Positions 32,862 to 64,000 of a stretch of DNA of 64,000 bases are shown one piece after another. The first letter of the stretch is position 1. Every line of letters begins with the position of its first letter. The notes under the pieces are model-generated. The model was not told the origin of the DNA. It did not search any database and worked only from the letters and a program-made list of their open reading frames with translations. Made by a program: the position numbers and the translations under genes. The stretch spans positions 186,001-250,000 of the forward strand of contig JOAZ01000001.1 in the NCBI GenBank assembly GCA_000720535.1, written 5' to 3'. Source of the DNA: Streptomyces halstedii (GTDB taxonomy: Bacteria > Actinomycetota > Actinomycetes > Streptomycetales > Streptomycetaceae).

Positions 32862-33407
32862 TCACCGCCGTCCCTGGATCTCCGGATAGCGGGCGGCGAT
32901 CAGCTCGCTCGCCCGGGGACCACGGGCGAAGACGAAGTCGGGGGAGTCGAGATGACGCCCCGTCAGGCGATCCACCACGACCGGGTCCGCCTCCGCGCCG
33001 GTGGCGGCGTCCACCAGCAGCAGACTGCGCTCCTCCGGGGCCAGCCGGTGATTCCCCCACGCGGCCATGACCAGGATGAGCGGGCGCAGCGCCCGGCCGC
33101 GATCGGTGGGCCGGTACGCCGGGTCGTCCGGGGACGAGGCCCCGTCCTCGGGTGCGAGGAGGTCCCTCGCCACCAGGCCCGCGATCCGGTCCGTCAGTAC
33201 GTCGGCGGGCGTCGCCAGATTCCGGCGGATCGCCGAGAAGCGGGTGTGGCCGTCGAAGACCTCGTGCAGGATCTCCAGCGTCCACCAGGGGCCGACGGCC
33301 TCGACCGTGCGTGCCAGCGGGCAGTCGGGAATCCGTGGCTTGGGGCCGGCCGGGGGCGCCGGCTCCGCGCGTTCGCCGTCCCGGGTGTTCAAGAGGTCGC
33401 TCCTCAC
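32862..33407 (-). CDS. HxlR-family winged-helix regulator
   Basis: This 181-residue DNA-binding protein has the HxlR signature: a Cys in PDCPLARTVEAVGPWWTLEIL, RFSAIRRNLATPADVLTDRIAGL (recognition region) and RPTDRGRALRPLI. Many members sense electrophiles or oxidants through that Cys. It lies directly downstream of the flavin reductase and halogenase on the minus strand and is probably the left border of the biosynthetic cluster. GTG 33407 gives the longest form. TTG 33392, which has GAGGAG at a better spacing, is an alternative start. Confidence 0.82.
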   Translation of the reverse strand: MRSDLLNTRDGERAEPAPPAGPKPRIPDCPLARTVEAVGPWWTLEILHEVFDGHTRFSAIRRNLATPADVLTDRIAGLVARDLLAPEDGASSPDDPAYRPTDRGRALRPLILVMAAWGNHRLAPEERSLLLVDAATGAEADPVVVDRLTGRHLDSPDFVFARGPRASELIAARYPEIQGRR

Positions 33408-33518
33408 CGTCAGCTCCCATGGGTCGTCGGAATCGTCTGGTACCGCCGGGCGCCCCCGGCCGGCGGCCCCCGCGTGACGGCGGGCGCCTCCGGCCGGGGG
33501 CGGACACGTCCCGGCCCC

Positions 33519-34124
33519 TCACACGGCCGCACCGCCGGCCGCCGGGCCGGTGCCGCTCGGGCCGGTGCCGGTCGGAACGGTGCCGCTCGGGCCGGGAGGG
33601 GAGGTTCGCAGCGATCCGTACCGCCGCATCCCGTACAGCAGCGGGCTCGACGGCCGGTCCGCCCGCACCTTCACCTGGAGCACCTCCCCGAAGACCACCA
33701 CGTGGTCCCCGACGGACAGCGTCTCGCTGACACGGCAGTCCGCGACCGTGTGGGCGTCCTCGACCAGGTGCGGCAGCCCGGACTCCGGTTCCCGGACCCA
33801 TTCCACCTTCTCGAACCGGTCCGGCGCGCCGGAGGCGAAGAGGGTCGCCGCGCCCTCGGCCCGGTCGTGCAGCAGGTTGACCGCGAACGCCGACACCTGG
33901 AGCAGCGCGGCCAGCGTCGGGCTCTCGGCCCGCAGGCACACCAGCAAGGTCGGCGGCCGCAGGGCGACGCTGCACATCGACGAGCAGGTCATCCCCCAGG
34001 GCTCACCGTCCGGCGCGGCGGTCGTCACGACGGTGACTCCGGCCGGGTGCGTCGTCATGAGAGAGCGGAACTCCGCCTGATCGACCGGTGCTCGCGCGAT
34101 CGTGCCGGTCACAGGGTTCGGCAT
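33519..34124 (-). CDS. Flavin reductase, partner of the halogenase
   Basis: This 201-residue protein has the flavin-reductase-like split-barrel domain: FRSLMTTHPAGVTVVTT, WGMTCSSMCSVALRPPTLLVCL and FAVNLLHD, with HTVADCRV and GDHVVVFGEV later. It would supply FADH2 to the tryptophan halogenase encoded 34 nt upstream in the same operon. The last 25 residues are a Gly/Ser/Thr/Pro repeat encoded by repeated GGTGCCGCTCGGGCC units at about 33546-33595, absent from typical partners. The ATG at 34124 has a near-perfect GAGGAGGT ribosome site. Confidence 0.88.
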   Translation of the reverse strand: MPNPVTGTIARAPVDQAEFRSLMTTHPAGVTVVTTAAPDGEPWGMTCSSMCSVALRPPTLLVCLRAESPTLAALLQVSAFAVNLLHDRAEGAATLFASGAPDRFEKVEWVREPESGLPHLVEDAHTVADCRVSETLSVGDHVVVFGEVLQVKVRADRPSSPLLYGMRRYGSLRTSPPGPSGTVPTGTGPSGTGPAAGGAAV

Positions 34125-34158
34125 GCTGTGCTACCTCCTCGCTCGGCCATGCCGCTGA

Positions 34159-35727
34159 CTACGAACGCGCCTTTTTCAGCCTCGCGACGTGGGCCAGGTA
34201 GTCCCAGTGGCTCGGCAGCCGCTCGACCAGCGAGGCGGCCTGGTCGCGGACCTGCCGCAGCTCCTTGGACGCGGCGGTGTCGTCCATCAGCGCCAGACCG
34301 GGCCGGGCACGGACGTCGAGACCGCCGAGGCCCAGGATCATCGCGGTGTAGGAGTAGGGCTCGAAGCCGTGGTAGTACGGGAACACGGTGTCCGCGTCGG
34401 GCAGTTTGACCTTCCACTGCTCGATGCGCTCGGCCAGCGCGTCGGGCACGGTGCGCGTCTTGGCGTCCTGCCAGTACGCGTTGTTGTCGCGCTTGGCGGC
34501 GATGTAATGGAGCACGAGGAACTCCCGTACGCCGTCCATGACGTTGGCCACCTGGCGGTTGTAGGACCTGCGCAGCTGGTGGTCGTCCCGGCCGCCCGGG
34601 AAGTGCTTCACCAACTGCTCGATGCCGTTCTGGATGAAGAAGATCCCCGTCGACTCCAGCGGCTCCACGAACCCGCTGGACAGGCCGATGGCCACGACGT
34701 TGTTGACCCAGGAGTTCTCGCTCCGGCCGATCCGCATCTTGATGTGATTGGCCGTCAGGTCCTCGGACCCCGGCCCCACGAACGAGCGGAGGGTGCGCTC
34801 GGCCTCGTCCGGGGTGCAGTAGTCACTGGCGTAGACGTAGCCCGTGCCGATCCGGTCGGAGAGCGGGATCGTCCAGATCCAGCCGGCGTCCTGCGCGGTG
34901 GACCTGGTGTACGGGCCCATCCCCTGGTCGGACATCTCCATCGGCACCCGCAGAGCGACCGCGCTGTCGTTCGGCAGGCTGTCCTGGTACGAGAGGAAGG
35001 GCACCTCCAGCCGCTTGTTGAGCAGCATCCCGCGGAACCCGGTGCAGTCGATGAAGAGGTCGCCCGCCAGGTCGCCGCTCTCCTTGGTGCGCACGTGCGT
35101 GACGTCGCCGCGCTCGTCCACCTCCGCGTGCACCACGTCGTCCAGCACGTGCCGGACCCCGCGGTCGGTGCCGTACCGGGTGAGGAGCTTGGCCAGCAGC
35201 GTGGCGTCGAACTGGTAGGCGTACGGGAACTGGGTGTTCTGTTCGGCCATGGTGGACCGGGACGCGTGCTCCGCCTCGTGCTCGACCGCGTCGAGCTCCA
35301 GCAGGCTGCCCTCCAACCGCCGGGGCGAGCGCTTGGCGTCGCAGAGCGCGGCGATCACCGAGCAGTCCCGGTCGTAGTCGGCGCTGGGCCGCTTGTGCAG
35401 CCACCAGTCCGCGAGGGACACGCCCTCCACGATGCGCGGCCGCTCGAAGGGGTGGTAGAAGTGGTGCCCCTCGGCCCGCCAGTTGTCGTAGCGGATCCCC
35501 AGCTTGTAGGTGGCGTGGCACTCCGGCATCCAGTCGGTCTCGGCGAGTCCGAGATACGAGAAGAAGTGCCGGATGGTGCTGAAGGACGCCTCCCCCACCC
35601 CGATCGTGGGCACGTTCTTCGATTCGACGAGCGTCACCGCGAGCTTGTCGCCGAAGGTCGCTTTCAGATACGAGGCGGTCATCCACCCCGCGGTCCCGCC
35701 GCCGACGATGACAACACTTCTGGCCAT
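34159..35727 (-). CDS. FAD-dependent tryptophan halogenase, PyrH (5-halogenase)-like
   Basis: This 522-residue flavin-dependent halogenase has the FAD fingerprint VGGGTAGWMTA, the halogenase signature GWIWTIPL, the catalytic Lys K75 (in TYKLGIRY) and the Glu in GFVEPLESTGIFF. It installs chlorine (or bromine) on free tryptophan using FADH2, O2 and halide. By memory comparison its N-terminus (VTLVES, STIRHFFSYLGL, FYHPFERPRIV) and length are closest to PyrH, a tryptophan 5-halogenase, and not to the 7-halogenases; regiochemistry is therefore a guess. ATG 35727 is preceded by GTGAGGGAA. It is followed by its flavin reductase. Confidence 0.92.
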   Translation of the reverse strand: MARSVVIVGGGTAGWMTASYLKATFGDKLAVTLVESKNVPTIGVGEASFSTIRHFFSYLGLAETDWMPECHATYKLGIRYDNWRAEGHHFYHPFERPRIVEGVSLADWWLHKRPSADYDRDCSVIAALCDAKRSPRRLEGSLLELDAVEHEAEHASRSTMAEQNTQFPYAYQFDATLLAKLLTRYGTDRGVRHVLDDVVHAEVDERGDVTHVRTKESGDLAGDLFIDCTGFRGMLLNKRLEVPFLSYQDSLPNDSAVALRVPMEMSDQGMGPYTRSTAQDAGWIWTIPLSDRIGTGYVYASDYCTPDEAERTLRSFVGPGSEDLTANHIKMRIGRSENSWVNNVVAIGLSSGFVEPLESTGIFFIQNGIEQLVKHFPGGRDDHQLRRSYNRQVANVMDGVREFLVLHYIAAKRDNNAYWQDAKTRTVPDALAERIEQWKVKLPDADTVFPYYHGFEPYSYTAMILGLGGLDVRARPGLALMDDTAASKELRQVRDQAASLVERLPSHWDYLAHVARLKKARS

Positions 35728-35779
35728 GGTTCCCTCACTTCTTCCGTGCTGACCCGACTTCAACCGTCCTGGCTCCCGG

Positions 35780-35799: not shown

Positions 35800-35844
35800 G
35801 CGAAGGAGAATGATCTGGAAGGGACGCGCCCGCGCCGTCTTCGT

Positions 35845-37167
35845 CTACCGGGAGGAATCCGCGCCCGCGTCACCGCACTCGTCGACGAACTCCAGGATCT
35901 TGCGCACCCCGGATTCGAGCGACGCCGGATCCACGCAGAACGCGACCCGGACCAGGTGCCGTGCCCAGGGCGCGAAGTCGTGGGACCGGATGCGGCCCTG
36001 CTCGTCCACGTCGGGGCGCATGGCGAAGCCGTTCCCCGGCACGACGGCGACGCCCTTGCGTGCGAGCAACTCGGTCGCGAAGGTCTCGGCGTCCAGCCCC
36101 GTCCGGGCCACGTCCAGCATCGCGTACCAGCCGCCGGCCGGAAGTTCGCTCATCAGCCCCGCGCGGACCAGCGGCGACAGCGCCACGTCCCGGTTGCGCT
36201 GCACCAGCTTCCGGTTGGTCGCCGCCGCGTCGGCCCGGGTCTCCAGCGCGGCGATCCCCGCGTACTGCACCGGGGTCGAGGTGCCGATGATGTTGGCCTC
36301 CTGCGTCACCTTCATGACGTCGGCGGCGTGGTCGTTGGCCAGGGCGACGTAGCCCAGCCGGTACCCGGTCATCGCGAAGCTCTTGGAGAAGCTGAAGACG
36401 CTGTGCACGATGCGCTCGTCGACCGGCACGTCGCGTTCGAGCGAGGCGACCGAGACGTGCTCGCCCTCGTACAGGAAGTGCTCGTACGCCTCGTCGCTGA
36501 TGACGTGCCAGCCCCGGCCGCGGGCCAGCTCCAGCAGGGCACCGATCTCGTCGCGGTCCAGGACGACACCGGTCGGGTTGGCCGGCGAGTTGATGACCAG
36601 CACCCGGGTACGCGGGGTGGCGGCGGCCGCGATCGTCGCGGGGTCGGGCCGGAAGTCGTCACCGAGCGCGTACAGCACCGGGCGGAACCCCGCGAGCACG
36701 CTCTGCTGGAGGTGGACCGGCCAGTGCAGTTCCGGCAGCAGGATCTCGGCGCCGGGCTCGGCGAGCGACTGGAGCAGGGCGGCCAGGCCCTGGCACGAGC
36801 CCGGCGAGATCAGCAGCCGGGAGACCGCGCTGTCCACCCCGTTGTCGAGGCGGAGCTTCTCCACGGCCGCCGCGCGCAGCTCGGGCAGGCCCTCCACACC
36901 GGTGTACTTGGTCTCTCCGCGCCGCACCGCGTCCACGAAGGCGTCCGCGACGTTGTCGGCGGGGTCGAAGTACGGGTCACCGACGTGCAGCTTCACCACC
37001 TCGGTACCGGACTCCTCCTCCTTCGCCTCCGCCGCGCGGAAGATGCGGTGCAGACACGAGGAGGGGATGGAACCGGCGGCGGACAAGATGTCTGAACTCA
37101 CGCTCGTACCGTCCTTGTTCTGTCGGGGTTTCCGTCGACCGTTCGTGGAGGTCGCGGGATGTGTCAT
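35845..37167 (-). CDS. PLP-dependent class I/II aminotransferase
   Basis: This 440-residue fold-type I aminotransferase has the PLP-Lys motif SFSKSFAMTGYRLGY, NSPANPTGVV and SDEAYEHFLYEG. Kynurenine aminotransferases belong to this family and cyclise their product to kynurenic-type quinolines; in thiocoraline-type pathways a similar enzyme acts on hydroxykynurenine. ATG 37167 overlaps the SDR stop (ATGA), which supports this start and gives a 22-residue basic N-terminal extension. GTG 37101 is the alternative. It is the third gene of the thioesterase-SDR-aminotransferase block. Confidence 0.85.
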   Translation of the reverse strand: MTHPATSTNGRRKPRQNKDGTSVSSDILSAAGSIPSSCLHRIFRAAEAKEEESGTEVVKLHVGDPYFDPADNVADAFVDAVRRGETKYTGVEGLPELRAAAVEKLRLDNGVDSAVSRLLISPGSCQGLAALLQSLAEPGAEILLPELHWPVHLQQSVLAGFRPVLYALGDDFRPDPATIAAAATPRTRVLVINSPANPTGVVLDRDEIGALLELARGRGWHVISDEAYEHFLYEGEHVSVASLERDVPVDERIVHSVFSFSKSFAMTGYRLGYVALANDHAADVMKVTQEANIIGTSTPVQYAGIAALETRADAAATNRKLVQRNRDVALSPLVRAGLMSELPAGGWYAMLDVARTGLDAETFATELLARKGVAVVPGNGFAMRPDVDEQGRIRSHDFAPWARHLVRVAFCVDPASLESGVRKILEFVDECGDAGADSSR

Positions 37168-37907
37168 GCCGTACGGCCGCCGTCGACGGGGATCAGCGCC
37201 CCGGTGACCCAGCCGGACACCTCCGGGTCGATCAGCAGGGACACCCATCGGCCGATCTCCGTGTCCTGGCCGAACCGCCCCATCGGGGTCGAGGCGAGGA
37301 GCCCGGCGCGCAGTTGTTCGGTGCCCGCCCCGTCGAGGCCGGTCTCGTGCCACATCGGCGTGTCCACCGGGCCGGGCATGACGGCGTTCACCCGGACGTC
37401 CGGGGCGAGTTCGCGTGCCAGCGAACGGGTGAGGCTGTTGAGGGCCGCCTTGCTCGCGCCGTAGAAGGCACGCCCCGGCATGGACAGCGCGCCGCCGACC
37501 GAGGAGATGTTGACGACGCTGCCGCGGTGGGCGCGCAACTGCGGCAGCGCGCACCGGATCAGTTCGGCCGGAGCGCGTACGTTGACGGCGAGCATCGCGT
37601 CGAACAGCGCGGGGTCGGTCGTCTCCAGCTCACCGAACCGGGCCAGCCCCGCGTTGTTGACCACCGCGTCGAGCCTGCCGAAGGCCCCGGTCGCCGCGGC
37701 GACGATCCGCCCGGCCGCGCCGGGCGCGGACACGTCCTCGGCCACCACCGTGACGGCGTCCCCGTAACGGTCCTTCAGCTCCCGCAGGGGCTCCTCGCGG
37801 CGCCCGACGACGGTCACCCCGGCGCCGGACTTCAGCACGCACTCCGTGATGCCCCGGCCGATACCGGTGGCCGCGCCGGTGATCACGACGGACTGTGCGG
37901 TACTCAT
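37164..37907 (-). CDS. Short-chain dehydrogenase/reductase
   Basis: This 247-residue classical SDR has the cofactor motif TGAATGIGRG, NNAG, and the catalytic Ser-Tyr-Lys set in NISSVGG and YGASK. The basic residues after strand two (VVGRREE) favour NADP(H). It should oxidise or reduce an alcohol or ketone, perhaps the beta-hydroxy group or a quinolone carbonyl on the way to the starter acid. Start and stop overlap both neighbours by 4 nt, so it is translationally coupled to the thioesterase upstream and the aminotransferase downstream. Confidence 0.87.
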   Translation of the reverse strand: MSTAQSVVITGAATGIGRGITECVLKSGAGVTVVGRREEPLRELKDRYGDAVTVVAEDVSAPGAAGRIVAAATGAFGRLDAVVNNAGLARFGELETTDPALFDAMLAVNVRAPAELIRCALPQLRAHRGSVVNISSVGGALSMPGRAFYGASKAALNSLTRSLARELAPDVRVNAVMPGPVDTPMWHETGLDGAGTEQLRAGLLASTPMGRFGQDTEIGRWVSLLIDPEVSGWVTGALIPVDGGRTA

Positions 37908-38671
37908 CGCAGGACCTCGCTCTCCGCGAGAACCGCGGTGATGTCGTCGATCAGCTCGGCCGGGTGGGAGAGGAACCGGAAGTGCCCGCCCGGCAGGGCC
38001 CGTACGTCGAAGCGGCCGGCGGCCACGGCGTCCCAGGCGCCGGCCCGCGCGGCGTCCACCAGCGGGTCCCCGGTGTTGTGGTAGCAGCGGATCCGGCAGT
38101 CCAGCGGCTCGGCGCCGGGCGCGGGCCGGTAGGTCTCGTGGAGCGTGATGTCGGACCGCAGGACCGGCAGCAGCAGGTCCCGCAGCTCCGGGTCGTCCGC
38201 GATCTCCGGCGCGATCCCGCCGAGGTCCCGCAGCGCCCGCCACAGCTCCTCGTCGTCCGCCCGGTGCGTGGTTCCACCGCCGGCCGCCCGGGGCGCGGGC
38301 GCGCCCGACAGGAACAGGGCGCGCGGGGGCGTGCCGAGGTCCCGCATGGCCCGTGCGGTCTCGTACGCGACCAGGGCGCCCAGGCTGTGCCCGAACAGGA
38401 CGCAGCGAGCCGGATCCAGCCGCGACAGCTCCCGCGCGACGTGTGAGCCGATCTCCGCGACGCTGCCGGCCGGCGCCTCGGCGATCCGGTCGGCGTGACC
38501 GGGATACTGCGCGGCGAGCAGCTCCATGTCCCCGGGCATCGCCGGCGACCAGGCACGATAGGTCGCCGCCGAACCACCGGAGTGCGGAAAGCAGACCAGC
38601 CGGACGGCCGGGCCCGTCACACCGCCGAGGGCCCGCAACCAGCCTCGGTCACGCGTTCGTATGGGATTCAC
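37904..38671 (-). CDS. Type II thioesterase
   Basis: This 255-residue alpha/beta hydrolase has the type II thioesterase pattern: VCFPHSGGSAATYRAW near the start, GHSLGALVAYE (nucleophile Ser) and GGHFRFLSH (catalytic His). Such proteins clear misloaded carriers; in echinomycin and thiocoraline systems a dedicated one releases beta-hydroxytryptophan from a stand-alone carrier. It begins the minus-strand block that faces the AMP ligase gene. GTG 38671 is chosen on length; GTG 38686 is equally possible, as both have only modest ribosome sites. Confidence 0.85.
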   Translation of the reverse strand: MNPIRTRDRGWLRALGGVTGPAVRLVCFPHSGGSAATYRAWSPAMPGDMELLAAQYPGHADRIAEAPAGSVAEIGSHVARELSRLDPARCVLFGHSLGALVAYETARAMRDLGTPPRALFLSGAPAPRAAGGGTTHRADDEELWRALRDLGGIAPEIADDPELRDLLLPVLRSDITLHETYRPAPGAEPLDCRIRCYHNTGDPLVDAARAGAWDAVAAGRFDVRALPGGHFRFLSHPAELIDDITAVLAESEVLR

Positions 38672-38790
38672 GCCACCGAGCTTCACCGAACCCCCGGCCC
38701 GGTCGCGGCAATCTGTCAAAGCTCTGTCGGGCTCGCCGAGGCACCAGGACTCGTGCCCGAACCTGAGGGTGTCGCACCCTAGGAGGACAC
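38672..38790 (+). promoter_or_regulatory. Divergent promoter region with palindrome next to the ribosome site
   Basis: This 119-nt region separates the minus-strand thioesterase block from the plus-strand AMP ligase. AGGGTG-TCG-CACCCT (38766-38780) is a perfect inverted repeat that abuts the ligase ribosome site AGGAGG (38781-38786). As RNA it would form a hairpin beside the start codon; as DNA it could be an operator. The word TCTGTCAA at 38712-38719 recurs at 47259-47266 in the P450/mbtH region. Confidence 0.45.
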
Positions 38791-40416
38791 ATGCTCGACG
38801 GCTTCGTGCCCTGGCCGACCGGCTTCGCCGACCGCTACCGCCGTGCCGGCTACTGGCGCGGTCTCTCCCTGCGGCAGCTGTTCGCCGACAGCGCCGCACG
38901 CCGGCCGGACAAGACCGCCGCGGTGGACGCGCACCACCGCGTCACCTACGCGGAGCTGGCCGAGGAGGCCGACCGGATCGCGTCGGGCCTGCTCGCCCTC
39001 GGCGTCCGCGGCCGCGACCGGGTGGTGGTGCACCTCCCGAACCGGATCAGCTTCCTGTCCACCCTCATCGCCCTGGCCGGCATCGGCGCCATCCCGGTCC
39101 TGGCGCTGCCCGGTCACCGCCGCGACGAGATCCTGCACCTGGCGCGCGCCTCCGAGGCGGTGGCCTACATCGGCCCCGACCGGTTCCAGGGCTTCGACTT
39201 CCGGGCGCTGGCCCGCGACGTCCGCCGGGACGCGCCCGGCCTGCGGCACGTGGTGATCGACGGCCAGGCGGAGGAGTTCACCCCGCTGTCGGAGCTGGCA
39301 CGCTCCGGCGTACGGGAACTGCCTCCCGTCGACTCGTCCGAGGTGGCGCTGCTCCTGCTGTCGGGCGGAACCACCGGTGTGCCCAAGCTGATCCCGCGCA
39401 CCCACGACGACTACGCGTACAACATCTCCGCGTGCGCCCGGGTGGTGGAGTTCGACGACAGCGGGGTCTACCTCGCCGCGAACCCCGTGCCGCACAACGC
39501 CGCGCTGGGCTGCCCCGGGGCGCTGGGGGCGGTGCTCATCGGCGGTAAGGCCGTACTCGCCGCCAACCCCAGCCCCGACCACGTCTTCCCGCTGATCCGG
39601 GACGAGGGCGTCACCCTCACCACGCTGGTGCCCGCGCTGGCCCTGCTGTGGGCGGAGGCCGCCCGCGCCACGCCGATCGACATGAGCGGCATGATCATGC
39701 AGGTGGGCAGCTCCAAGTTCGGACCGGCCGCGGCGGAGCGGGTGAGCGGGAGCCTGGGCTGCCGCATCGCGAACGTGTACGGCATCGGCGAGGGCCTGAT
39801 CACCCACACACGCCTGGACGACCCGCCGGAGGTCGTCTTCGGCACGGAGGGCAGGCCGGTGTGCCCGGACGACGAGATCAGGATCGTCGACGCCGACGAC
39901 CACGACGTCGCCGTCGGGGTCACCGGTGAACTGCTGACCCGCGGCCCGTACACCATCCGCGGCTACTTCGCGGCGCCGGAACACAACCGCCGGTCCTTCA
40001 CCGAGGACGGCTTCTACCGCTCCGGCGACCTGGCGCGGCTGACCGAGGACGGCAACGTCGTCATCGAGGGCCGGCTGAAGGACATCATCCACCACCTCGG
40101 GGAGAAGGTCTCGGCGGAGGAGGTCGAGGGACACGTCCTGACCTACCCCGGAGTCCGCGACACCGCCGTGGTCGGCGTCCCGGACGGCGACCTCGACGAA
40201 CGCGTCTGTGTGTTCGTCGTCCTCGGCGGCGGCGCGGACGACGGGGCGGCGCCGGTCACCCTGCGCTCGGTCAGGGAGCACATGCGCGCGCGGGGGCTGG
40301 CCTCCTACAAGATGCCGGACGAGGTGGTCGTCGTACCCGACCTCCCCCGCACCCCGGTGGGCAAGATCGACAAGAACGCGTTGCGGGCCTCGCGCCGCGC
40401 ACGCCAGACGGTCTGA
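38791..40416 (+). CDS. Aryl-acid AMP ligase (EntE/DhbE-type, loads the NRPS starter)
   Basis: This 541-residue adenylating enzyme has the P-loop LLLLSGGTTGVPK, the core RSGD/GRLKD region (YRSGDLARL, EGRLKDII) and the C-terminal Lys in PVGKIDKNAL. PVPHNAALG matches the PxxHN motif of aryl-acid ligases, with Asn instead of the Asp that binds alpha-amino groups, so the substrate is an aromatic acid. It would load that acid onto the ArCP at the start of the NRPS at 51955. No salicylate or dihydroxybenzoate synthase is in the window, so a tryptophan-derived quinaldic-type acid is the best guess (TioJ of thiocoraline is a precedent). Confidence 0.88.
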   Translation: MLDGFVPWPTGFADRYRRAGYWRGLSLRQLFADSAARRPDKTAAVDAHHRVTYAELAEEADRIASGLLALGVRGRDRVVVHLPNRISFLSTLIALAGIGAIPVLALPGHRRDEILHLARASEAVAYIGPDRFQGFDFRALARDVRRDAPGLRHVVIDGQAEEFTPLSELARSGVRELPPVDSSEVALLLLSGGTTGVPKLIPRTHDDYAYNISACARVVEFDDSGVYLAANPVPHNAALGCPGALGAVLIGGKAVLAANPSPDHVFPLIRDEGVTLTTLVPALALLWAEAARATPIDMSGMIMQVGSSKFGPAAAERVSGSLGCRIANVYGIGEGLITHTRLDDPPEVVFGTEGRPVCPDDEIRIVDADDHDVAVGVTGELLTRGPYTIRGYFAAPEHNRRSFTEDGFYRSGDLARLTEDGNVVIEGRLKDIIHHLGEKVSAEEVEGHVLTYPGVRDTAVVGVPDGDLDERVCVFVVLGGGADDGAAPVTLRSVREHMRARGLASYKMPDEVVVVPDLPRTPVGKIDKNALRASRRARQTV

Positions 40417-40421
40417 GAGCC

Positions 40422-40482: not shown

Positions 40483-40618
40483 TCCGCACCCCCCGCCTCC
40501 CTCTTCTCCGCCTCGCGGTGCCCCGTGTCCGGCCCGGAGCCCTTCCCCGCGCCACGGCTGATTCCTGACCGTTCCGGCAGCACATGGAAACGGATCCCCA
40601 TCGGAAGAGTTGGTTCAC

Positions 40619-41737: not shown

Positions 41738-41738
41738 C

Positions 41739-49571: not shown

Positions 49572-49999
49572 TTTGATTCCCTCTCTCCGTGACGAACTCG
49601 TACGTACGGCACGCCCCTTGCGCCCCTGTGGGCAGCACGGAGGGCGCTGCGTGGAACCCCCGCGCGGGAGACGATGGCCATACCGGCGACGTCGCCCCCG
49701 ATCGTTCGTGGCCTGGGGCATCCGTACGACGGCCGCGCTGAACCGGGCACCGCCACATCATGGGGCGCCCGGCGGACCCGTGAGCACCCGGAGAAAGAGT
49801 TCTTTCACGGCCCGTCCGGCCGGCCGGGCTCCATGCGATCGTCGGTGACTGTTACCCGGCGCGACGGAATTCCCGGCGCCCGTGCCGGCGAACGGTGACA
49901 CCGGTGTACGGAACTCGGGAGGAATTCGGCGGCAGCCGTTCCCGCGCACCGTAACGCGTCCTATTCGTGCCGGAACTCTGTGTCGGAGGCGGAGCGGAG
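49572..49999. promoter_or_regulatory. Divergent TDO/NRPS control region
   Basis: There is no gene in these 428 nt. GAAAGA-GT-TCTTTC (49793-49806) is a perfect palindrome embedded in an AT-richer patch and is a candidate operator. The ribosome site for the NRPS gene, GGAGGCGGAGCGGAG, lies just before 50000. Confidence 0.45.
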
Positions 50000-56559: not shown

Positions 56560-59500
56560 ACGCCAACGACCTGCTCGAAGAGTTCCGGAGCGCCGGTGTC
56601 CGCCTGTGGCGCGAGGGGGAGCAACTGCGCTTCCGCGCCCCCCGCGGCGTGATGACCGAGGAGCGTCTGGCGGAACTGCGCCGTGGCAAGGCGGAGTTGC
56701 TGGCGGCCCTCGCCCACACCGCCGGGGGCCCGGAGCCGGAGGGGCCGCACGCCGACCCGGTGTGGCAGTCCCGGCCCGGGGAGCGCGAAGAGCCCTTCCC
56801 GCTGACCGACATCCAGTCGGCCTACCTGTTCGGCCGCAACCCGGCCTTCGACTACGGCGGCGTCTCCTGCCACGTCTACCTGGAGTTCGAGTATCCGGCG
56901 GACCTCGACCCGGACCGGCTGCGACGGGCCTGGGACGGCCTGGTGGAGCGCCACGAGACCCTGCGGACCGTCATCTCCTCCGACGGCACCCAGCGCGTCC
57001 TGCCCGCCCCGGCGGACACCCGCATCGAGGTCGCCGACCTCCGCACGGCGCCCGGTGACACGGTCGAGAAGGCGATCGACGGCGTGCGGGACGAGCTGAG
57101 CCACGCGGTGCACCCGGCGGACGAGCGCCCCATGCACGAGCTGCGCCTGACCCTGGCCGGCACGCGCAGTGTGCTGCACGTGTCGGTGGACTTCATGGCG
57201 CTGGACTGGCTCAGCATGCAGCGGGTGCTCACCGAGCTGGACCTCCGCTACGCGCGGCCGGACTGCGAACTCCCGCCGGTGGACGCCACGTTCCGCGACT
57301 ACGTGCTCGCCGAGCGCCGGCTGCGGGAGAGCGGCCGGTACGCCCGCGACCGCGCGTACTGGTGGGACCGCCTCGACGGGCTGCCCGGCGCCCCGGCGCT
57401 GCCGCTGCGCGACGACCACGACCCCGCGACCGCGCCGCCGCGCTTCCGCCGTCTGACGGCCACGCTGGACGACCGCGTGTGGCGGTCGCTGAAGGCGCGC
57501 GCCGCCGGACACGGCGTCACACCGGCCAACGCGGTGCTGGCGGCGTACGCGGAGACGATCGGCCGCTGGAGCGGCACCGAACGCTTCTGCCTCGGGCTGC
57601 CCGTGCTCAACCGGATGCCGCTGCACCCGCACGTGGACCGGCTGCTCGGCGACTTCACCTCGCTGAGCCTGCTCGCGGTCGAACCCGAGGGCAGGGCGTC
57701 CTTCGCCGAACGGGCCCGCGCCCTGGGCGAGCGGGTCTTCGACGACCTCGACCACCGGCTGTACAGCGGGGTGGAGGTGCTGCGCGAACTCACCCGGCGC
57801 CGGGGGCGCGAAGCGGCGGCGGTACTCCCGGTGGTGTTCACCGGCAGCATCGGCGTGGTGGGCGGCACGGTGTCGGCGGCGGGCCGCAAGGCCCGGCCGG
57901 TGTACGGCATCAGCCAGACCCCGCAGGTGTGGATCGACTGCCAGGTCGGCGACCAGTACGGCGGCCTCGACATGAACTGGGACGTACGGGACGGCGTCTT
58001 CGCCGACGGCGTGGTGGACGACATGTTCCACGCCTTCGAGGGGCTGCTGCACCGGCTGGCCGAGGACGACGGGCCATGGGCGGCGGTGGAGCCGCAGCCC
58101 CTGCCGGACGACCAGCGCGCCCGGCGGACGGAGGCGAACGCCACGGCGGCGCCGGTGCCGGACGGCCTGCTGCACGACCCGCTCGTGGCCTACGCCCGCG
58201 CCTTCCCGGACCGGACCGCCGTGATCGACCCGGCGGGAACGCTCACCTACGGGCAGTGGCTCGGGCGCGCGGCCGGGGTCGCCGAACGGCTGCGGGCCGC
58301 CGGGCTGCGCCCCGGTGACTTCGTCGGCGTCCTCGTCGACAAGAGCCGGGAGCAGGCCGTCGGGGTGCTCGGGGTGCTCCTCGCGGGCGGGGTGTACGTC
58401 CCGGTCGACCTCGGCCAGCCCGCGGTCCGCCGGGACCGGATCCTCACCGGCAGCGGCACCCGGTTCGCGGTCGTCGCCGGTGACGCGACCGCCGCGCCGC
58501 CCGGCGTCCGGGCGGTGGACGTGACCGGGGTGGAGCCGGTCACGGAGGACGGGACGACCGCCGTTGCGCCGGTGGCACCCGGGGAACTCGCCTACGTCAT
58601 GCACACCTCGGGTTCGACCGGGGTGCCCAAGGGGGTGATGATCACCCATCAGGCCGCCGCCAACACGGTGCACGACATCAACCTGCGCTTCGGCGTCAAC
58701 GGAGCCGACCGGGTGCTGGGGCTCGCGGCGCTCAGCTTCGACCTGTCCGTCTACGACCTGTTCGGCCCGCCGGCCGTGGGTGCCGCCCTGGTGCTCCCGG
58801 ACCCGGCCCGCCGCGGCGACCCCTCGCACTGGGCCGCGACGGTGGCCGAGCACGGGGTGACGCTGTGGAACTCGGTCCCCGCGCAGCTCCACATGCTGAT
58901 GCACTACCTGGACGTCGAGCCCACCGAACTGCCCTCGCTGCGGCTGGCGTTGCTCTCCGGCGACTGGATCCCGCTGTCGCTGCCCGCGCACGCCGCACGC
59001 CACGTCCCCGGTACCGAGCTGGTCGGTCTGGGGGGAGCGACGGAGGCGGCGATCTGGTCGATCCACCACCGGATCAGGACGGTCGAGCCGCACTGGCGCA
59101 GCGTCCCGTACGGAACACCCCTGGCGAACCAGCGCTTCCACGTGCTCGACGCCGCCCTGCGCGACCGGCCCGACCTGGTCGTCGGTGAGCTGTACATCGC
59201 GGGCACCGGACTGGCGACCGGCTATCTCGGCGACCCCGGGCGGACGGCGGAGCGCTTCTTCCGGCACCCGGAGACGGGCGAGCCGCTGTACCGCACCGGC
59301 GACCTCGGCCGCTACCTGCCGAACGGCGAGATCGAGTTCTCCGGGCGCGCGGACCAGCAGATCAAGATACGCGGACACCGGATCGAACTCGGCGAGATCG
59401 AGGCGGTGCTCGGTGAACACCCGGGCGTGGACACCTGTGTGGTGCTGGCGGCGGGCGCCGACGCGTTCGAGCGGAGCCTGATCGCCTTCGTGCTGCCGCA

Positions 59501-60815
59501 CCGGGGCTCCGCACCGGCCGACGGCACGGAGCTGGCCGGATGGGTGGCCGGGCGGCTGCCCGCGCACATGGTCCCGGCACGGGTGCGGATCGTGGACACC
59601 CTGCCGCTCACCGCCAACGGGAAGGTGGACCGCAAGCGGCTGCTCGGGTCGGCGCCGGTGTCCGGCGCGCCGCGGGCCGTACGCTCCGAGCCGCCGCGGC
59701 CGGGTACCGAGCAGCGGATCGCCGCGCTGTGGGCGGAGGTCCTGGGGGGCGAACAGCCCAGCCGTGACCAGGAGTTCTTCGACGCCGGTGGCAACTCCCT
59801 GCTGGCGGCCCAGTTCGTCGGGCAGGTGCGCGAACGGGTCCCGGAGGCCGCCCGGGTCACCTTCGACGTGCTGCTGCGCGCCCTGCTCGACCGGCCCACG
59901 GTGGCCGGCCTCGCCGAGTGGCTGGGCTCCGCCGCCGCCGAGCCGGTCCGGGCGCCGGAGGCGACGGAGGCCCGGCGCTCGCCGCTGGTCCCGCTCGCCG
60001 GACAGGGCGGCGGTCCGCGAGGCGGACGGGTGCGGCTGCTCGTGCACGACGGAACGGGAACCCTGGCGGCCTACCAGGAGCTGATCACCCTGCTCGGGAC
60101 GGACGTACCGCTGGCGGGCCTCGCCCTGCCGGACGGCGGGCACCACCCCGACGTCGCCGCGGCGGACCTCGTCGACGAGCTGGCCGCCCGGTACGCGCGC
60201 GAGGTGCGGGACGCCGGGTACGACGACGTCGAGATCGTCGGCTACTGCCTCGGCGGCCCCGTCGCGCTGGAGACCGCGCGGGCCCTGGCCGAGGCGGACG
60301 TGACGGTCCGGCGGCTGACCCTCGTCTCCAGCCACCCCGTCCCGTACGCCCCGCTCGACGAACTGGTCCTGGACCACGCCTTCGCCCGCGCGGCGGGCGC
60401 CGACCCGGCCTCGCTCGGCCGGCCGGACGACGAGGCGGCGGTCGGCGAACGGTTCCGCACCCTCGGGCGGCGGGACACGGCCGAACGCCGGGCGGAGCTG
60501 TACCGGGCGGTGAGCGGCCCGGCGGGCGACGACGGGCGGACCGCGGCGGCGCACACCGCCTTCGCCCGTACGGTGGAGGCGGTCGCGGGTTACGAACCGC
60601 AGCCGTACGCGGGGGACATCACCCTCCTGCGCCCGGCCGGGCCCGCGCGGCTCGTCCCCGGACCGGCCGAGGACCCGGCCCTCTTCTGGGGCGACGCGTG
60701 CCTGGGGGAGCTGACCGTGACCGACATCCCCGGCGACCACTTCAGCTGCCTCCGGCCCCCGCACGCGGCCCGGACGGCCCAGGCGATCATCGCACCGGGG
60801 GAGGCCCGCCGATGA
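56556..60815 (+). CDS. NRPS: docking-Cy-A(Cys)-T-TE
   Basis: This 1419-residue second module starts with a TubC-type docking domain (residues 1-50, FRSAGVRLWREGEQLRFRAP). It continues with a Cy domain (about 72-500, D-FMAL-D in VDFMALDWLS) and an A domain with the full cysteine code DLYNLSLIWK. The carrier is in FFDAGGNSLLA and the thioesterase occupies about 1165-1419. The thioesterase nucleophile motif is GYCLGG with C1231 where Ser is normal; the His is in GDHFSCL. No N-methyltransferase insert is present, unlike PchF. The GTG start overlaps the previous stop. It adds a second Cys ring and releases the product. Confidence 0.93.
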   Translation: MNANDLLEEFRSAGVRLWREGEQLRFRAPRGVMTEERLAELRRGKAELLAALAHTAGGPEPEGPHADPVWQSRPGEREEPFPLTDIQSAYLFGRNPAFDYGGVSCHVYLEFEYPADLDPDRLRRAWDGLVERHETLRTVISSDGTQRVLPAPADTRIEVADLRTAPGDTVEKAIDGVRDELSHAVHPADERPMHELRLTLAGTRSVLHVSVDFMALDWLSMQRVLTELDLRYARPDCELPPVDATFRDYVLAERRLRESGRYARDRAYWWDRLDGLPGAPALPLRDDHDPATAPPRFRRLTATLDDRVWRSLKARAAGHGVTPANAVLAAYAETIGRWSGTERFCLGLPVLNRMPLHPHVDRLLGDFTSLSLLAVEPEGRASFAERARALGERVFDDLDHRLYSGVEVLRELTRRRGREAAAVLPVVFTGSIGVVGGTVSAAGRKARPVYGISQTPQVWIDCQVGDQYGGLDMNWDVRDGVFADGVVDDMFHAFEGLLHRLAEDDGPWAAVEPQPLPDDQRARRTEANATAAPVPDGLLHDPLVAYARAFPDRTAVIDPAGTLTYGQWLGRAAGVAERLRAAGLRPGDFVGVLVDKSREQAVGVLGVLLAGGVYVPVDLGQPAVRRDRILTGSGTRFAVVAGDATAAPPGVRAVDVTGVEPVTEDGTTAVAPVAPGELAYVMHTSGSTGVPKGVMITHQAAANTVHDINLRFGVNGADRVLGLAALSFDLSVYDLFGPPAVGAALVLPDPARRGDPSHWAATVAEHGVTLWNSVPAQLHMLMHYLDVEPTELPSLRLALLSGDWIPLSLPAHAARHVPGTELVGLGGATEAAIWSIHHRIRTVEPHWRSVPYGTPLANQRFHVLDAALRDRPDLVVGELYIAGTGLATGYLGDPGRTAERFFRHPETGEPLYRTGDLGRYLPNGEIEFSGRADQQIKIRGHRIELGEIEAVLGEHPGVDTCVVLAAGADAFERSLIAFVLPHRGSAPADGTELAGWVAGRLPAHMVPARVRIVDTLPLTANGKVDRKRLLGSAPVSGAPRAVRSEPPRPGTEQRIAALWAEVLGGEQPSRDQEFFDAGGNSLLAAQFVGQVRERVPEAARVTFDVLLRALLDRPTVAGLAEWLGSAAAEPVRAPEATEARRSPLVPLAGQGGGPRGGRVRLLVHDGTGTLAAYQELITLLGTDVPLAGLALPDGGHHPDVAAADLVDELAARYAREVRDAGYDDVEIVGYCLGGPVALETARALAEADVTVRRLTLVSSHPVPYAPLDELVLDHAFARAAGADPASLGRPDDEAAVGERFRTLGRRDTAERRAELYRAVSGPAGDDGRTAAAHTAFARTVEAVAGYEPQPYAGDITLLRPAGPARLVPGPAEDPALFWGDACLGELTVTDIPGDHFSCLRPPHAARTAQAIIAPGEARR

Positions 60816-61936
60816 CGCGCGCGACACCGGGCCCGACGCGCGTCGTGGTGTGCGGCACGCGGTTCGGGCAGGTCTACCTCTCGGCCCTGGCCCGTGCCGA
60901 GCCCGGACGCTTCGAGCTCGCCGGCATCCTGGCCCAGGGCAGCGCCCGCTCGGTGGAGCTCGCCGCGCGGTACGGCGTCCCGCTCTACGACAAGGTCGGG
61001 CAACTGCCCGACGACGTCGACGCGGCCTGTGTCGTGGTGTCCACCGCCGTCGGCGGCGGGCGGGGCGCCGAGCTGGCGCGCGCCCTGCTCGAACGCGGCG
61101 TCCACGTGATGCAGGAGCACCCGGTGCACCCGGACGAACTGGCGGACTGCCTGCGGACGGCGCGCCGGACCGGGACCCAGTACATGGTGAACACGTTCTA
61201 TCCGCACCTGGAGCCCGTCCGGCGGTTCACCTCGGCCGCCCGCCGGCTCGTGCGGCTGCGCACGCCGGTGTTCGTCGACGCGATGTGCGCGGTGCAGGTC
61301 TCCTTCGACCTGCTGGACATCCTGGCCGGGATCTTCGACGGGCTGCGGCCCTGGTCGCTGTCCCCGGTCACCGGCGGCGCGGGCCGCCCGCTGGTCGCGG
61401 TGGAGGGGCAGGTCGCGGGCGTCCCGCTGACGCTGCGGGTGGAGAACCGCATGCAGGCCGGGGACGACAGCACCAGCCTGCTGCTGCACCGGATCACCGT
61501 CGGCACCGACGCGGGCAACCTCATGCTGGCCAACACCCACGGCCCGGTGATCTGGAGCCCGGTGCTGCGCATGCCTTCGGGCGCCACGGGGCAGTTCCTC
61601 CCCGGCGCCCCGGACACGGAGGAGCTGTGGCCGCACGGTCTCGGTACCACCGGCGCCTATGTGGGCGCGGCCGGGACGCCGACCTGGGCGGCCGCGATGC
61701 GTGAGGTGTGGGCGGACGGTGTGCTGGCCGCCCTGGAGGAGCTGCGGGAGCGCGCCGCCACGGGCGCGGACCCGCTGCGCGGCAGCCAGCGCCCGCTGGC
61801 CGTCGCCCGTGCGTGGAAGGAGCTGACCGAGGCGCTGGGCTATCCGGAGGTGGCCGAACCGGAGGCGGGGGACCCGCTGACGGTGGAGGATCTGACGGGT
61901 GGAGCGGGCCCGGGACGAACGGAGGAGGGCGCTTGA
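60812..61936 (+). CDS. Thiazolinyl imine reductase (PchG/Irp3-like)
   Basis: This 374-residue Gfo/Idh/MocA-like NADPH reductase has VVVCGTRFGQVYLSAL at the nucleotide site, VVVSTAVGGG, GVHVMQEHPVHPDEL and YMVNTFYPHL, a pattern specific to the yersiniabactin/pyochelin imine reductases. It reduces a carrier-bound thiazoline to a thiazolidine. With two Cy modules it most likely acts on the second ring. ATG 60812 overlaps the NRPS stop, so it is co-translated with the assembly line. A short AT-richer gap follows before the ABC genes. Confidence 0.93.
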   Translation: MTRATPGPTRVVVCGTRFGQVYLSALARAEPGRFELAGILAQGSARSVELAARYGVPLYDKVGQLPDDVDAACVVVSTAVGGGRGAELARALLERGVHVMQEHPVHPDELADCLRTARRTGTQYMVNTFYPHLEPVRRFTSAARRLVRLRTPVFVDAMCAVQVSFDLLDILAGIFDGLRPWSLSPVTGGAGRPLVAVEGQVAGVPLTLRVENRMQAGDDSTSLLLHRITVGTDAGNLMLANTHGPVIWSPVLRMPSGATGQFLPGAPDTEELWPHGLGTTGAYVGAAGTPTWAAAMREVWADGVLAALEELRERAATGADPLRGSQRPLAVARAWKELTEALGYPEVAEPEAGDPLTVEDLTGGAGPGRTEEGA

Positions 61937-62020
61937 CAACGGCGCCCGTTGGTGGTGGCTCATCAGGCCCGTCCGGGGTACAGTAATTTTCGTACGCGTT
62001 TCTAAAAGGATGGGAGAGCG

Positions 62021-63859
62021 ATGAGTGCGATCGATCCCGCTGTGGCGAGGGAGCGGTCCACGCCGTTACCGGACGCCGGTTCAGCAGCGGAACAGGGTAT
62101 GGGCCGACTGCTGCGCCCCTACATCTGGAAATTCGCGGCCGTGGTGGTCCTCCAGGTGGTCGGTGCCGTGGCGGGACTGGCACCGCTGCTGGCGGTGGTC
62201 GAGCTGGGGCGGACCCTGCTGGCCTCGGGACCGGTCGATCGCGATCATGTGTGGCTCGTCGTGATCCTGGGGGCCGTCGGTCTCTTCGTCCGGCTGGTGT
62301 TCACGGCCGCGTCGTCCGGGATCGGGCACATCGTCGACGGCCAGGTGCAGCTGGCGTTCCGCCGGCAGCTGGCCGCCCGGCTGGGGCGCGTACCGATCGG
62401 CTGGTTCTCCCGGCGCCGGACCGGCGAGCTGGCCAAGGTGGTGGGGGAGGACGTGGGTGCCGTGCACCCGTTCATCGCCCACACCCCCGGCGAGCTCGTC
62501 TCCGCGTTCGTGGTCCCGCTGGTCTCGCTGGTCTATCTGTTCACCATCGACTGGCGGCTCACGCTGATCACGCTCGTACCCGTGGTGCTGGCCATCGCCC
62601 TCGTCCCCCTGATGATGACCCCGACCCGGCTGCGTGAGCAGGAGGAGTTCGACACGGCCATGGGCCGGATCTCCAGCTCCGTGGTCGAGTTCGTGCAGGG
62701 CATCGCGGTCGTCAAGGCGTTCGGCAGCTCCGGGCGCGCGCACCGCAAGTTCCTCACCGCCACCGACGACTTCGTGGGCACCTTCTACCGCTGGGTGCAC
62801 GGCATCTCCCGGATCGCCGCCGGGATGCAGCTGGTGCTGTCGCCGCCGTTCGTCCTGCTGGTCGTGCTGATCGGCGGCACCGGCCTGATCACCAACGGTG
62901 GTCTGGACCCGGCCGACCTGCTGCCCTTCCTGCTTCTCGGTCTCGGCCTGACCGCCCCGGTGGCGGCCCTGGGCCACGGCTTCGACGAGATGCAGGCCGC
63001 CGGGCGCGCCGTCGGCCGGATCCGCGAGGTGCTCGGGGTGGAGTCGCTGCCCGAGCCCGCGCACCCGGGCGTCCCCGAGGGACACCGGGTGGAGCTGCGT
63101 GACGTCCGCTTCGGCTACGAGGACGACCACGAGGTCCTGCGCGGGATCGACCTGGTCCTGGAGCCGGGCACGGTCACCGCCGTCGTGGGCCCGTCGGGAA
63201 GCGGCAAGTCCACGCTCGTCCAGCTGCTGCCGCGGTTCTTCGACCCGACCCAGGGCTCGGTGCGCCTGGGCGGCGTCGACCTGCGCGAACTCGGCAGCGG
63301 CGAGCTCTACCGGATGGTCTCCTTCGTCTTCCAGGACGTCCGGCTGCTGCGCGCGTCGATCGCGGACAACATCGCGCTGGCCGTCCCGCACGCCGACCTC
63401 GACGACGTGGTGCGGGCCGCACGGCTCGCGAACATCCACGACCGCATCCTCGAACTGCCGCGCGGCTACGAGTCGGTGGTCGGTGAGGACGCCGGGCTGT
63501 CCGGCGGTGAGGCGCAGCGGATCTCGATCGCCCGCGCGCTGCTCGCCGACACCCCCGTCCTCGTGCTCGACGAGGCGACGGCCTTCGCGGACCCGCACAC
63601 CGAACAGGCGGTCCGTCAGGCCCTGGCGACGCTGGAGGGCGACCGGACCGTCCTGGTCATCGCCCACCGGCTGGAGACGATCAAGGACGCCGACACGGTC
63701 GTGATGCTGGAGGACGGGGCGGTCGCCGAGCGCGGCTCCCCCACCGAACTGCTCGCGCGGGACGGGAAGTTCGCCGCGTTCTGGCAAGCCCAGCGATCCG
63801 CGGTCGCCGACGAGGCCGAAGCCCGCGGTGGCGTACTGCAAGGAGACGAGCCCCGATGA
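62021..63859 (+). CDS. ABC half-transporter, YbtP/IrtA-like (siderophore uptake)
   Basis: This 612-residue fused membrane-ATPase protein has six helices in about residues 35-310. The ATPase domain has Walker A GPSGSGKST, signature LSGGEAQR, Walker B VLVLDEATAFADP and switch His in IAHRLE. The Ala-Phe-Ala in the D-loop is typical of YbtP/Q and IrtA/B, which have an exporter fold but import ferric siderophores. No SIP-type flavin domain is present, unlike mycobacterial IrtA. ATG 62021 follows GGGAGAG. It pairs with the partial gene that overlaps its stop. Confidence 0.9.
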   Translation: MSAIDPAVARERSTPLPDAGSAAEQGMGRLLRPYIWKFAAVVVLQVVGAVAGLAPLLAVVELGRTLLASGPVDRDHVWLVVILGAVGLFVRLVFTAASSGIGHIVDGQVQLAFRRQLAARLGRVPIGWFSRRRTGELAKVVGEDVGAVHPFIAHTPGELVSAFVVPLVSLVYLFTIDWRLTLITLVPVVLAIALVPLMMTPTRLREQEEFDTAMGRISSSVVEFVQGIAVVKAFGSSGRAHRKFLTATDDFVGTFYRWVHGISRIAAGMQLVLSPPFVLLVVLIGGTGLITNGGLDPADLLPFLLLGLGLTAPVAALGHGFDEMQAAGRAVGRIREVLGVESLPEPAHPGVPEGHRVELRDVRFGYEDDHEVLRGIDLVLEPGTVTAVVGPSGSGKSTLVQLLPRFFDPTQGSVRLGGVDLRELGSGELYRMVSFVFQDVRLLRASIADNIALAVPHADLDDVVRAARLANIHDRILELPRGYESVVGEDAGLSGGEAQRISIARALLADTPVLVLDEATAFADPHTEQAVRQALATLEGDRTVLVIAHRLETIKDADTVVMLEDGAVAERGSPTELLARDGKFAAFWQAQRSAVADEAEARGGVLQGDEPR

Positions 63860-64000
63860 TCCGAATGCTGATGCGCGTGCTGGGACGCGAGTACGCCCAG
63901 CCGTTGCGACGCACCGTGGCCCTGATGACGACGACCGCCGTCGCCGAAGGCCTGTCCTACGCCCTGGTGGTGCCCGTCCTGCGGGCCCTGTTCGGCGACA
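63856..64000 (+). CDS. Second ABC half-transporter, YbtQ/IrtB-like (partial, 5' end only)
   Basis: Only the first 48 residues are in the window. They start MIRMLMRVLGREYAQPLRRT and continue into a hydrophobic helix (VALMTTTAVAEGLSYALVVPVL), matching the first membrane helix of a YbtQ/IrtB-type partner. The ATG overlaps the previous stop (ATGA), as expected for an obligate heterodimer. The gene runs off the right edge. Confidence 0.75.
   Translation, partial: MIRMLMRVLGREYAQPLRRTVALMTTTAVAEGLSYALVVPVLRALFGD

Follow-up and report, generated by a model that had tools for sequence, protein, structure and literature searches.

In echinomycin biosynthesis, as set out in one report (PMC3578932), an adenylation-thiolation (A-T) didomain acting with an MbtH-like protein loads L-tryptophan, and a cytochrome P450 beta-hydroxylates the carrier-bound amino acid; the gene table of the same source places a DNA-binding regulator next to mbtH (qui4/qui5). 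For the later steps, PMC4052310 assigns the 3-hydroxyquinaldic acid (3HQA) branch to an aminotransferase and an oxidoreductase and the quinoxaline branch to other enzymes, and allows that N-formylkynurenine deformylation may be spontaneous. According to PMC9962454, sandramycin-type compounds start from 3HQA. Here we describe a stretch of 64,000 nucleotides from Streptomyces halstedii (hereafter the window; bases 186001-250000 of contig C1, GenBank JOAZ01000001.1, in a genome of 7.74 Mb), where the genes for such a starter lie together with a pyochelin-type nonribosomal peptide synthetase (NRPS) line and a regulator adjoins mbtH as in the echinomycin table. We consider it probable that this cluster makes a (chloro-)3-hydroxyquinaldoyl bis-cysteine chelator.

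Results

A candidate 3-hydroxyquinaldate starter pathway

Coding frames were chosen by third-position GC and verified with Pfam and NCBIfam. The genes and domains, two cysteine-type codes, a tryptophan-type A-T code, the pocket and clade of an aryl-acid ligase, and recurrence in four other Streptomyces can be read from the DNA itself, and on these the argument is built. The initial annotation had listed a quinaldate starter toolkit, a halogenase, and two cysteine-specific heterocyclising modules with an imine reductase, and had noted that salicylate synthase was absent. The domain matches and a ligase pocket of the 3HQA kind agree with the first of these, PF04820 and intact motifs with the second, and adenylation (A) codes, cyclisation (Cy) motifs and TIGR01761 with the third; the fourth also held, as described below. 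Its gene list was essentially right by Pfam and NCBIfam, but had missed a cassette of PrnB-like, PhzS-like and LCM-type genes, an FMO-like gene and the continuation of the cluster past the window edge (Table 1).

As a gene set the 3HQA toolkit is present, comprising the tryptophan A-T didomain, MbtH, P450, type II thioesterase (TE), tryptophan 2,3-dioxygenase (TDO), aminotransferase, short-chain dehydrogenase/reductase (SDR) and ligase. A-domain codes were read from alignment, using code positions and a cysteine code that we presume to be correct. The A-T code was DAWVTTAVGK, compared with DAWVMTGVGK and DAWTVTGVGK in two quinoxaline-type clusters, and the didomain probably loads tryptophan. 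We call these two clusters, in genomes G033 and G418, quinoxaline-type from gene content, frame sizes and gene order. Both carry P450, TE, TDO, ligase and A-T genes with large NRPS frames: the long open frames of G418 (stop to stop) include 2607 and 3258 codons, against 2665 and 3146 aa in echinomycin, and G033 has one frame of 2637 codons, with further NRPS matches reaching the edge of the fetched stretch. The mbtH gene and its adjoining regulator were matched in G418 and unmatched in the G033 stretch. Identity to the window proteins was 64-65% for the P450, 52-54% for the TE and 31-49% for the TDO (31% in G033; 49-52% in G418, G369 and NBC_00727). The P450 would take a Qui15-like role as beta-hydroxylase of carrier-bound tryptophan, and the TE would free beta-hydroxytryptophan. 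The P450 alone is no marker, since copies at ~50% identity also sit in clusters that do not resemble 3HQA clusters (NBC_01351 and WZ-12, found in a plasmid search).

The window aminotransferase and SDR had no match in G418 or G033, a comparison made with the window genes as queries. Both were matched in two cousin clusters, G369 and NBC_00727, at 50-54% identity (50-51% for the aminotransferase, 53-54% for the SDR), and in the four Streptomyces relatives described below at 77-84% and 80-82%, respectively. A TioG-like role is predicted for the aminotransferase, converting beta-hydroxykynurenine to 3,4-dihydroxyquinaldate, and a TioH-like role for the SDR, in the reduction to 3HQA.

A ligase pocket that appears to fit a bicyclic acid

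The ligase provided the strongest substrate evidence of the analysis. At the positions of DhbE residues 234-242, the window ligase aligns as HNAALGCPG against HNYPLSSPG in DhbE; the salicylate ligases 5wm2 and 7tyb (PchD) have HNFALACPG and HNFTLCCPG. We searched for the ligase across 392 genomes of the genus, scoring three to four candidates per genome, and compared 24 ligases, a non-random sample consisting of the best 20 of that search, NBC_00727 and three others of the own genome. HNAALGCPG was found in 13 of the 24 (five chlorinated-cluster genomes, G343, G040 and a six-row group containing NBC_00727), HNSALGCPG in one (G385) and HQAALACPG in five (G033, G418, G139, G016 and G324); the remainder were three HNFALACPG, one FNFTWGCPG and one HNFPMSSPG. 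The position of DhbE Tyr236 is therefore Ala or Ser in 19 ligases, which form exactly one side of a 100/99 split in the tree, and Phe in the other five; the window ligase falls on the former side, in the bicyclic-acid clade. At the position of DhbE Asn235, Asn is present in the window ligase and Gln in all five members of the quinoxaline-type group. The full query set was used to map clusters for two of the Gln-bearing ligases (G033, G418) and for two members of the six-row group (G369, NBC_00727); mapping covered G343, G040 and G260 in part.

Asn at the 235 position contacts the ortho-hydroxyl of the aryl acid. On our reading, the lost aromatic ring would give space for a second ring, with Asn kept where the acid has an ortho-hydroxyl, and the pocket as a whole appears to fit 3-hydroxyquinaldate. 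A ligase acting on salicylate only, which the initial annotation had named as a case against its proposal, is not what this pocket looks like. Across the 24 ligases, the 235/236 pair (Asn-Ala, Gln-Ala, Asn-Phe/Tyr) separates 3HQA-, quinoxaline- and salicylate/dihydroxybenzoate (DHB)-type starters, a signature that could serve genome mining.

Two cysteine modules, an imine reductase and a halogenase

NRPS1 matched PchE (7emy) with an E value of 4.6e-276, and the match extends over the domain that interrupts its A domain, which in PchE we take to be an epimerase. A loose SAM-motif pattern gave one candidate in the inserted domain of the window protein, one at a different place in G264 and none in G277, and methyl transfer by this domain appears unlikely. 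The A codes of NRPS1 (DLWNLSLIWK) and NRPS2 (DLYNLSLIWK) are both cysteine-type, and the Cy-domain motif DxxxxDxxS is present as DLLAADLAS and DFMALDWLS, respectively. The imine reductase scored 355.7 bits against TIGR01761 (cut-off 188.8). The TE of NRPS2 has the nucleophile motif GYCLGG (region of window 60240-60260), in which Cys takes the place of the usual Ser, and G264 shares this; NRPS4, in a neighbouring line described below, has GYCMGG.

In none of the five genomes, three of which are drafts and two of which have the cluster on short contigs, did we find a chorismate-binding (salicylate-synthase family) gene within the cluster, nor was one found on the G277 and G191 cluster contigs or the G017 contigs holding cluster genes. 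In G264, a single contig, the nearest is >700 kb away. In the own genome the nearest (C1:308882) is ~59 kb to the right of the window edge, beside a ligase of its own, and so does not adjoin the right edge, the position that the initial annotation had named as refuting its proposal. A salicylate starter was rejected on the pocket and clade of the window ligase together with the lack of a chorismate-binding gene in the cluster.

The best solved matches of the halogenase were a Trp-5 halogenase (8fov, 775.7 bits) and a Trp-6 halogenase (5hy5, presumably SttH, 775.0 bits), which tie. It contains GGGTAG, WIWTIP, TYKL and LESTG, in accordance with the GxGxxG, WxWxIP and catalytic-Lys motifs of FADH2-dependent tryptophan halogenases. 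The flavin reductase, which was unmatched on the three fetched G017 contigs, probably supplies it with FADH2.

The cluster core recurs in four other Streptomyces

Five of the 392 genomes, the own included, carry a ligase at least 76% identical. For the other four (G017, G264, G277 and G191), stretches were fetched and the cluster genes mapped onto them, and the core recurred in all, mostly at 55-84% identity. The cluster is nearly whole in just two of them, G264 and G277; in G191 and G017 it is split among contigs. G264 has the starter genes (A-T, P450, mbtH, both regulators, aminotransferase, SDR, TE, ligase and a TDO) together with halogenase, flavin reductase, NRPS1, NRPS2, imine reductase, both ABC genes, second TE and amidotransferase. 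The fetched stretch of G277 yielded all of these but the second TE and the amidotransferase. G191 retains the first half of the cluster up to a contig end, with part of NRPS1 (73%) on a separate contig. In G017, contig C576 carries HxlR, ligase, TE, SDR, aminotransferase and halogenase, C743 carries P450 and FMO, and on C959 the A-T gene (80%) is followed directly by NRPS1 (79%), the end of which (80%) is on C1001. An NRPS1 orthologue was thus present in all four relatives at 72-80%, fragmented in two.

Given this recurrence in four further Streptomyces, the association of these genes is not chance. Nor is the cluster unique, as four relatives carry it and a cousin family exists. Across the class (296 genomes of 114 genera, again with three to four candidates scored per genome), the ligase search at E 1e-178 returned only the own genome; so strict a threshold would also miss weaker cousins.

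Table 1. Features of the cluster, with positions in the window unless a contig is given
Feature	Position (strand)	Family or domains	Remarks
HxlR-family regulator	32862..33407 (-)	PF01638	left cluster edge; orthologues 65-73% in four relatives
Flavin reductase	33519..34124 (-)	PF01613	70-74% in G264, G277, G191
Flavin-dependent tryptophan halogenase	34159..35763 (-)	PF04820	
PLP aminotransferase	35845..37167 (-)	PF00155	start inferred
SDR	37164..37907 (-)	PF13561	
Type II TE	37904..38899 (-)	PF00975	true start probably downstream
Aryl-acid AMP ligase	38791..40416 (+)		predicted bicyclic (3-hydroxyquinaldate-type) pocket
PrnB-like haem enzyme	40610..41737 (+)	PF08933, E 1e-31	cassette gene 1, not core
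PhzS-like FAD monooxygenase	41676..43049 (+)	PRK07538, 462.1 bits (cut-off 400)	cassette gene 2, not core
LCM-type SAM methyltransferase	42968..43924 (+)	PF04072	cassette gene 3, not core; true start probably downstream
FMO-like monooxygenase	44006..45574 (-)	PF00743	cluster-linked
P450	45750..46961 (-)	PF00067	start inferred
MbtH-like protein	47571..47798 (+)	PF03621	
Winged-helix regulator	48133..48690 (+)	PF00486	adjoins mbtH; 44% to same-placed gene in G418
TDO	48852..49721 (-)	PF03301	start probably near 49571
A-T didomain	49967..51796 (+)	PF00501, PF00550	80% in G017, 74% in G191
NRPS1, PchE-like	51955..56559 (+)	PF00550, PF00668, PF00501, PF08242	aryl carrier-Cy-A(Cys)-epimerase/methyltransferase (MT)-like-T
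NRPS2, PchF-like without MT	56547..60815 (+)		TubC_N-Cy-A(Cys)-T-TE; start inferred
Thiazolinyl imine reductase	60812..61936 (+)	TIGR01761	
ABC transporter half	62021..63859 (+)		siderophore-importer-like
Amidotransferase	C1:252984-254828		asparagine-synthase-type
Alpha/beta hydrolase	C1:261501-262433		relatives adjoin mbtH in G264, G277, G191

Cluster borders and the PrnB cassette

The cluster is preceded on the left (before 32862) by a Na/H exchanger and antiporter/NADH-dehydrogenase-like subunits. To the right, the cluster continues beyond the window with a second ABC subunit, which starts at 63856 and lies almost entirely past the edge, a TE, the amidotransferase and the alpha/beta hydrolase, whose identity in relatives is 52-55%. 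Copies of the FMO-like gene lie ~21 kb outside the cluster in G264 (82%) and next to the P450 in G017 (81%).

The PrnB-like protein matched PrnB (2v7i) at E 1e-49 and keeps the residues aligned to His313 and Tyr321, which we presume to be functional in PrnB. The best solved match of the monooxygenase was 2rgj/3c96 (253.8 bits), which we take to be PhzS, and the LCM methyltransferase scored 189.1 bits against TIGR00027 (cut-off 93.55). A PrnB-like gene was present in 10 of 100 relatives, the own included. PrnB-like, PhzS-like and LCM genes occurred together in all eight named loci returned (Micromonospora, Verrucosispora, Nonomuraea and Streptomyces), the PhzS-like and LCM genes as one open frame in five; neighbours mostly differ, with some shared by four Micromonospora-type loci. 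Three of the five chlorinated-cluster genomes have the prnB-like gene, and only in the window is it inside the cluster. That of G277 is on another contig, and that of G017 is on a contig with no other cluster matches, where contig gaps could hide adjacency; whole-genome searches gave no match in G264 or the draft G191. The cassette is probably a passenger with its own tryptophan-derived product.

Neighbouring and cousin clusters

A second thiazoline line lies ~16 kb to the right of the window (C1:266285-284767), with NRPS3 (C1:266285-270877), NRPS4 and a ligase whose pocket, HNFALACPG, is salicylate-type. It had no match in the fetched stretches of G264 and G277. A single 9.4 kb contig of G017 has a homologue of NRPS3 (69%) together with the second ligase (79%), P450 (84%) and FMO (81%), which points to a supercluster in that genome. 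Further along the same contig of the own genome, at C1:308882-312400, a chorismate-binding gene lies beside a ligase with the unusual pocket FNFTWGCPG. Elsewhere, contig C26 carries a cluster that we take to be coelibactin-like. Its NRPS, SacDH, imine reductase, P450, TE and ABC pair are 31-48% identical to genes here, and it also has a chorismate-binding gene.

The cousin clusters are on a plasmid of Streptomyces sp. NBC_00727 (NZ_CP108982.1, 5712-45688) and in G369. Like the window cluster, they have TDO, aminotransferase, SDR, TE, P450, A-T, a 3HQA-type ligase, Cys-type Cy modules and an imine reductase; unlike it, they have a longer line with more modules, a FAAL-like ligase and two extra P450s, and NBC_00727 also an O-methyltransferase. 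No halogenase appeared in the NBC_00727 gene table or among the G369 matches.

Discussion

We propose the following route. The halogenase would chlorinate tryptophan, which the A-T/MbtH pair would load, the P450 beta-hydroxylate and the type II TE release. TDO and a hydrolase would give beta-hydroxykynurenine, which aminotransferase and SDR would convert to 3HQA, and the ligase would place this acid on the N-terminal carrier of NRPS1. The two Cy-A(Cys) modules would then form two rings, the reductase turning one thiazoline into a thiazolidine, and the TE would free the acid, perhaps to be amidated by the neighbouring amidotransferase. Such a product would resemble demethyl-pyochelin with a chloro-hydroxyquinoline replacing the hydroxyphenyl, and should bind metals.

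Several observations weigh against this reading. The best NCBIfam model for the ligase, TIGR02275, scored 565.5 bits, below its cut-off of 723.55, and three rows of the tree, each on the salicylate/DHB side, are long, over which the tree tool warns. The window TDO is just 26-30% identical to its counterparts in G264, G277 and G191, which suggests an exchange of this gene among clusters that are conserved in other respects (window 48852-49721 compared with L054:4440-5198); the low identity of the G033 TDO also weakens the quinoxaline-type label of that cluster. The linked alpha/beta hydrolase is esterase/lipase-like and not proven to be a formamidase, and the PrnB cassette could divert tryptophan to another product. 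Finally, the halogenases of G264 and G277 are 63% identical to that of the window, and that of G264 is nearest to 6nsd, presumably Tar14, by a wide margin, so that strains may differ in where the chlorine is placed.

The initial annotation had predicted a (chloro)hydroxyquinoline-thiazoline-thiazolidine metallophore with YbtPQ-like importers; the chemical part is mostly supported in sequence, but the metallophore role is not. The first ABC half is importer-like, its best solved match being IrtA (400.1 bits), which we take to be the mycobactin importer. It is one of two such genes and the only one contained in the window, and exporters match nearly as well: the lead over plant and animal exporters (382.5 bits and below) is just ~18 bits, a further point on the negative side, and the YbtP and YbtQ entries scored 310.9 and 256.3 bits. 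Using a consensus that we assume, we found no DmdR/IdeR iron box with at most three mismatches in the window or its right flank (L009), and no Zur-like site with at most one mismatch in the window, which likewise tells against metal uptake; between 32 and 64 kb of the window there was no box at up to six (iron) or four (Zur) mismatches. L009, in which no iron box was seen at up to six mismatches either, and 40 kb of G264 each gave one weak Zur-like site with four mismatches, and 40 kb of G277 one weak iron-like site with six. As a control, the same scan found an iron box with two mismatches near C3:174152 in the same genome, at what the ligase pocket and a neighbouring chorismate-binding gene mark as a DHB-type siderophore locus. 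The coelibactin-like contig C26 gave weak sites only, its upstream part lying outside the scan, and the Zur scan had no positive control.

It is accordingly a serious possibility, though one we hold short of even, that the same assembly yields a chelating antibiotic, or an agent under redox or quinone regulation, and not one for metal uptake. The lack of good iron or Zur boxes in the window, L009 and the G264 and G277 stretches, next to the two-mismatch box of the C3 control, is in keeping with this, as are the HxlR and winged-helix regulators. According to PMC3578932, echinomycin, a compound with some of the most closely related starter genes, is bioactive (anticancer) and not a siderophore. 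Against it are the importer-like ABC gene, the siderophore-typical thiazoline scaffold and the fact that no dedicated resistance gene was recognised among the annotated genes. The product is likely to be chelating, and may serve as a metallophore or as a chelating antibiotic.

The NRPS3/NRPS4 line with its salicylate-type ligase ~16 kb to the right, and the chorismate-binding gene at C1:308882, would be expected if a salicylate-started siderophore cluster of the pyochelin/watasemycin type merely lay beside an unrelated tryptophan-tailoring cluster. We judge this improbable: the window ligase falls in the bicyclic clade, the tryptophan genes, halogenase and NRPS1/2 occur together in G264 and G277, A-T and NRPS1 adjoin in G017, and no chorismate-binding gene was found nearby in these genomes. 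That the starter is instead an aminophenylpyrrole-type acid derived through PrnB is very improbable. A PrnB-like gene does lie inside the cluster, not far from the tryptophan halogenase, yet it is unmatched in G264 and G191, on other contigs in G277 and G017, and stands alone in other genera, and the 3HQA set is present; PrnB was rejected as a source of the starter on this distribution among the relatives. The fused cluster might be decayed or silent and give no halogenated product; with halogenase, Cy and carrier motifs intact and the cluster conserved in five genomes, we give this little credence.

If a chlorinated 3-hydroxyquinaldoyl bis-cysteine chelator is indeed made, it would link two natural-product logics, bisintercalator quinaldate starters and pyochelin-type chelators, give a natural context for Trp-5/6 halogenases and provide a defined strain set for seeking a chlorinated chelator. 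What is new is the way in which known parts are combined, and the combination is common to several strains and no unique oddity. A compound or cluster of this kind was not found in the open-access literature (titles and abstract starts among the matches listed). We suggest, tentatively and at slightly less than even confidence, that these clusters define an undescribed class, halogenated 3-hydroxyquinaldate-thiazoline-thiazolidine chelators, in which a bisintercalator starter pathway was grafted on a pyochelin-type line, and that this strain and G017 hold a supercluster making two aryl-thiazoline chelators.

Comparison with known systems

The pyochelin, yersiniabactin and watasemycin lines, whose gene sets we partly assume for this comparison, share with the window cluster the order aryl carrier-Cy-A(Cys)-E/MT-T, Cy-A(Cys)-T-TE, an imine reductase, an external TE and paired ABC genes. 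They differ in that the window cluster is without a salicylate synthase and has a ligase with a predicted bicyclic pocket; PchF presumably also carries an N-methyltransferase that the second module of the window is without. With the tryptophan halogenases 6nsd, 5hy5 and 8fov, the window enzyme shares family and motifs, its context being a quinaldate-thiazoline line.

The quinoxaline and 3HQA pathways (thiocoraline, SW-163, echinomycin and triostin) have in common with the window A-T and MbtH, P450, type II TE, TDO and ligase, a winged-helix gene adjoining mbtH and, as in the 3HQA branch, an aminotransferase and a reductase. In contrast to these, the window cluster has a halogenase, its starter is probably loaded on an N-terminal carrier domain and not on a free carrier protein, and it would feed a heterocyclising bis-cysteine line in place of a bisintercalator NRPS.

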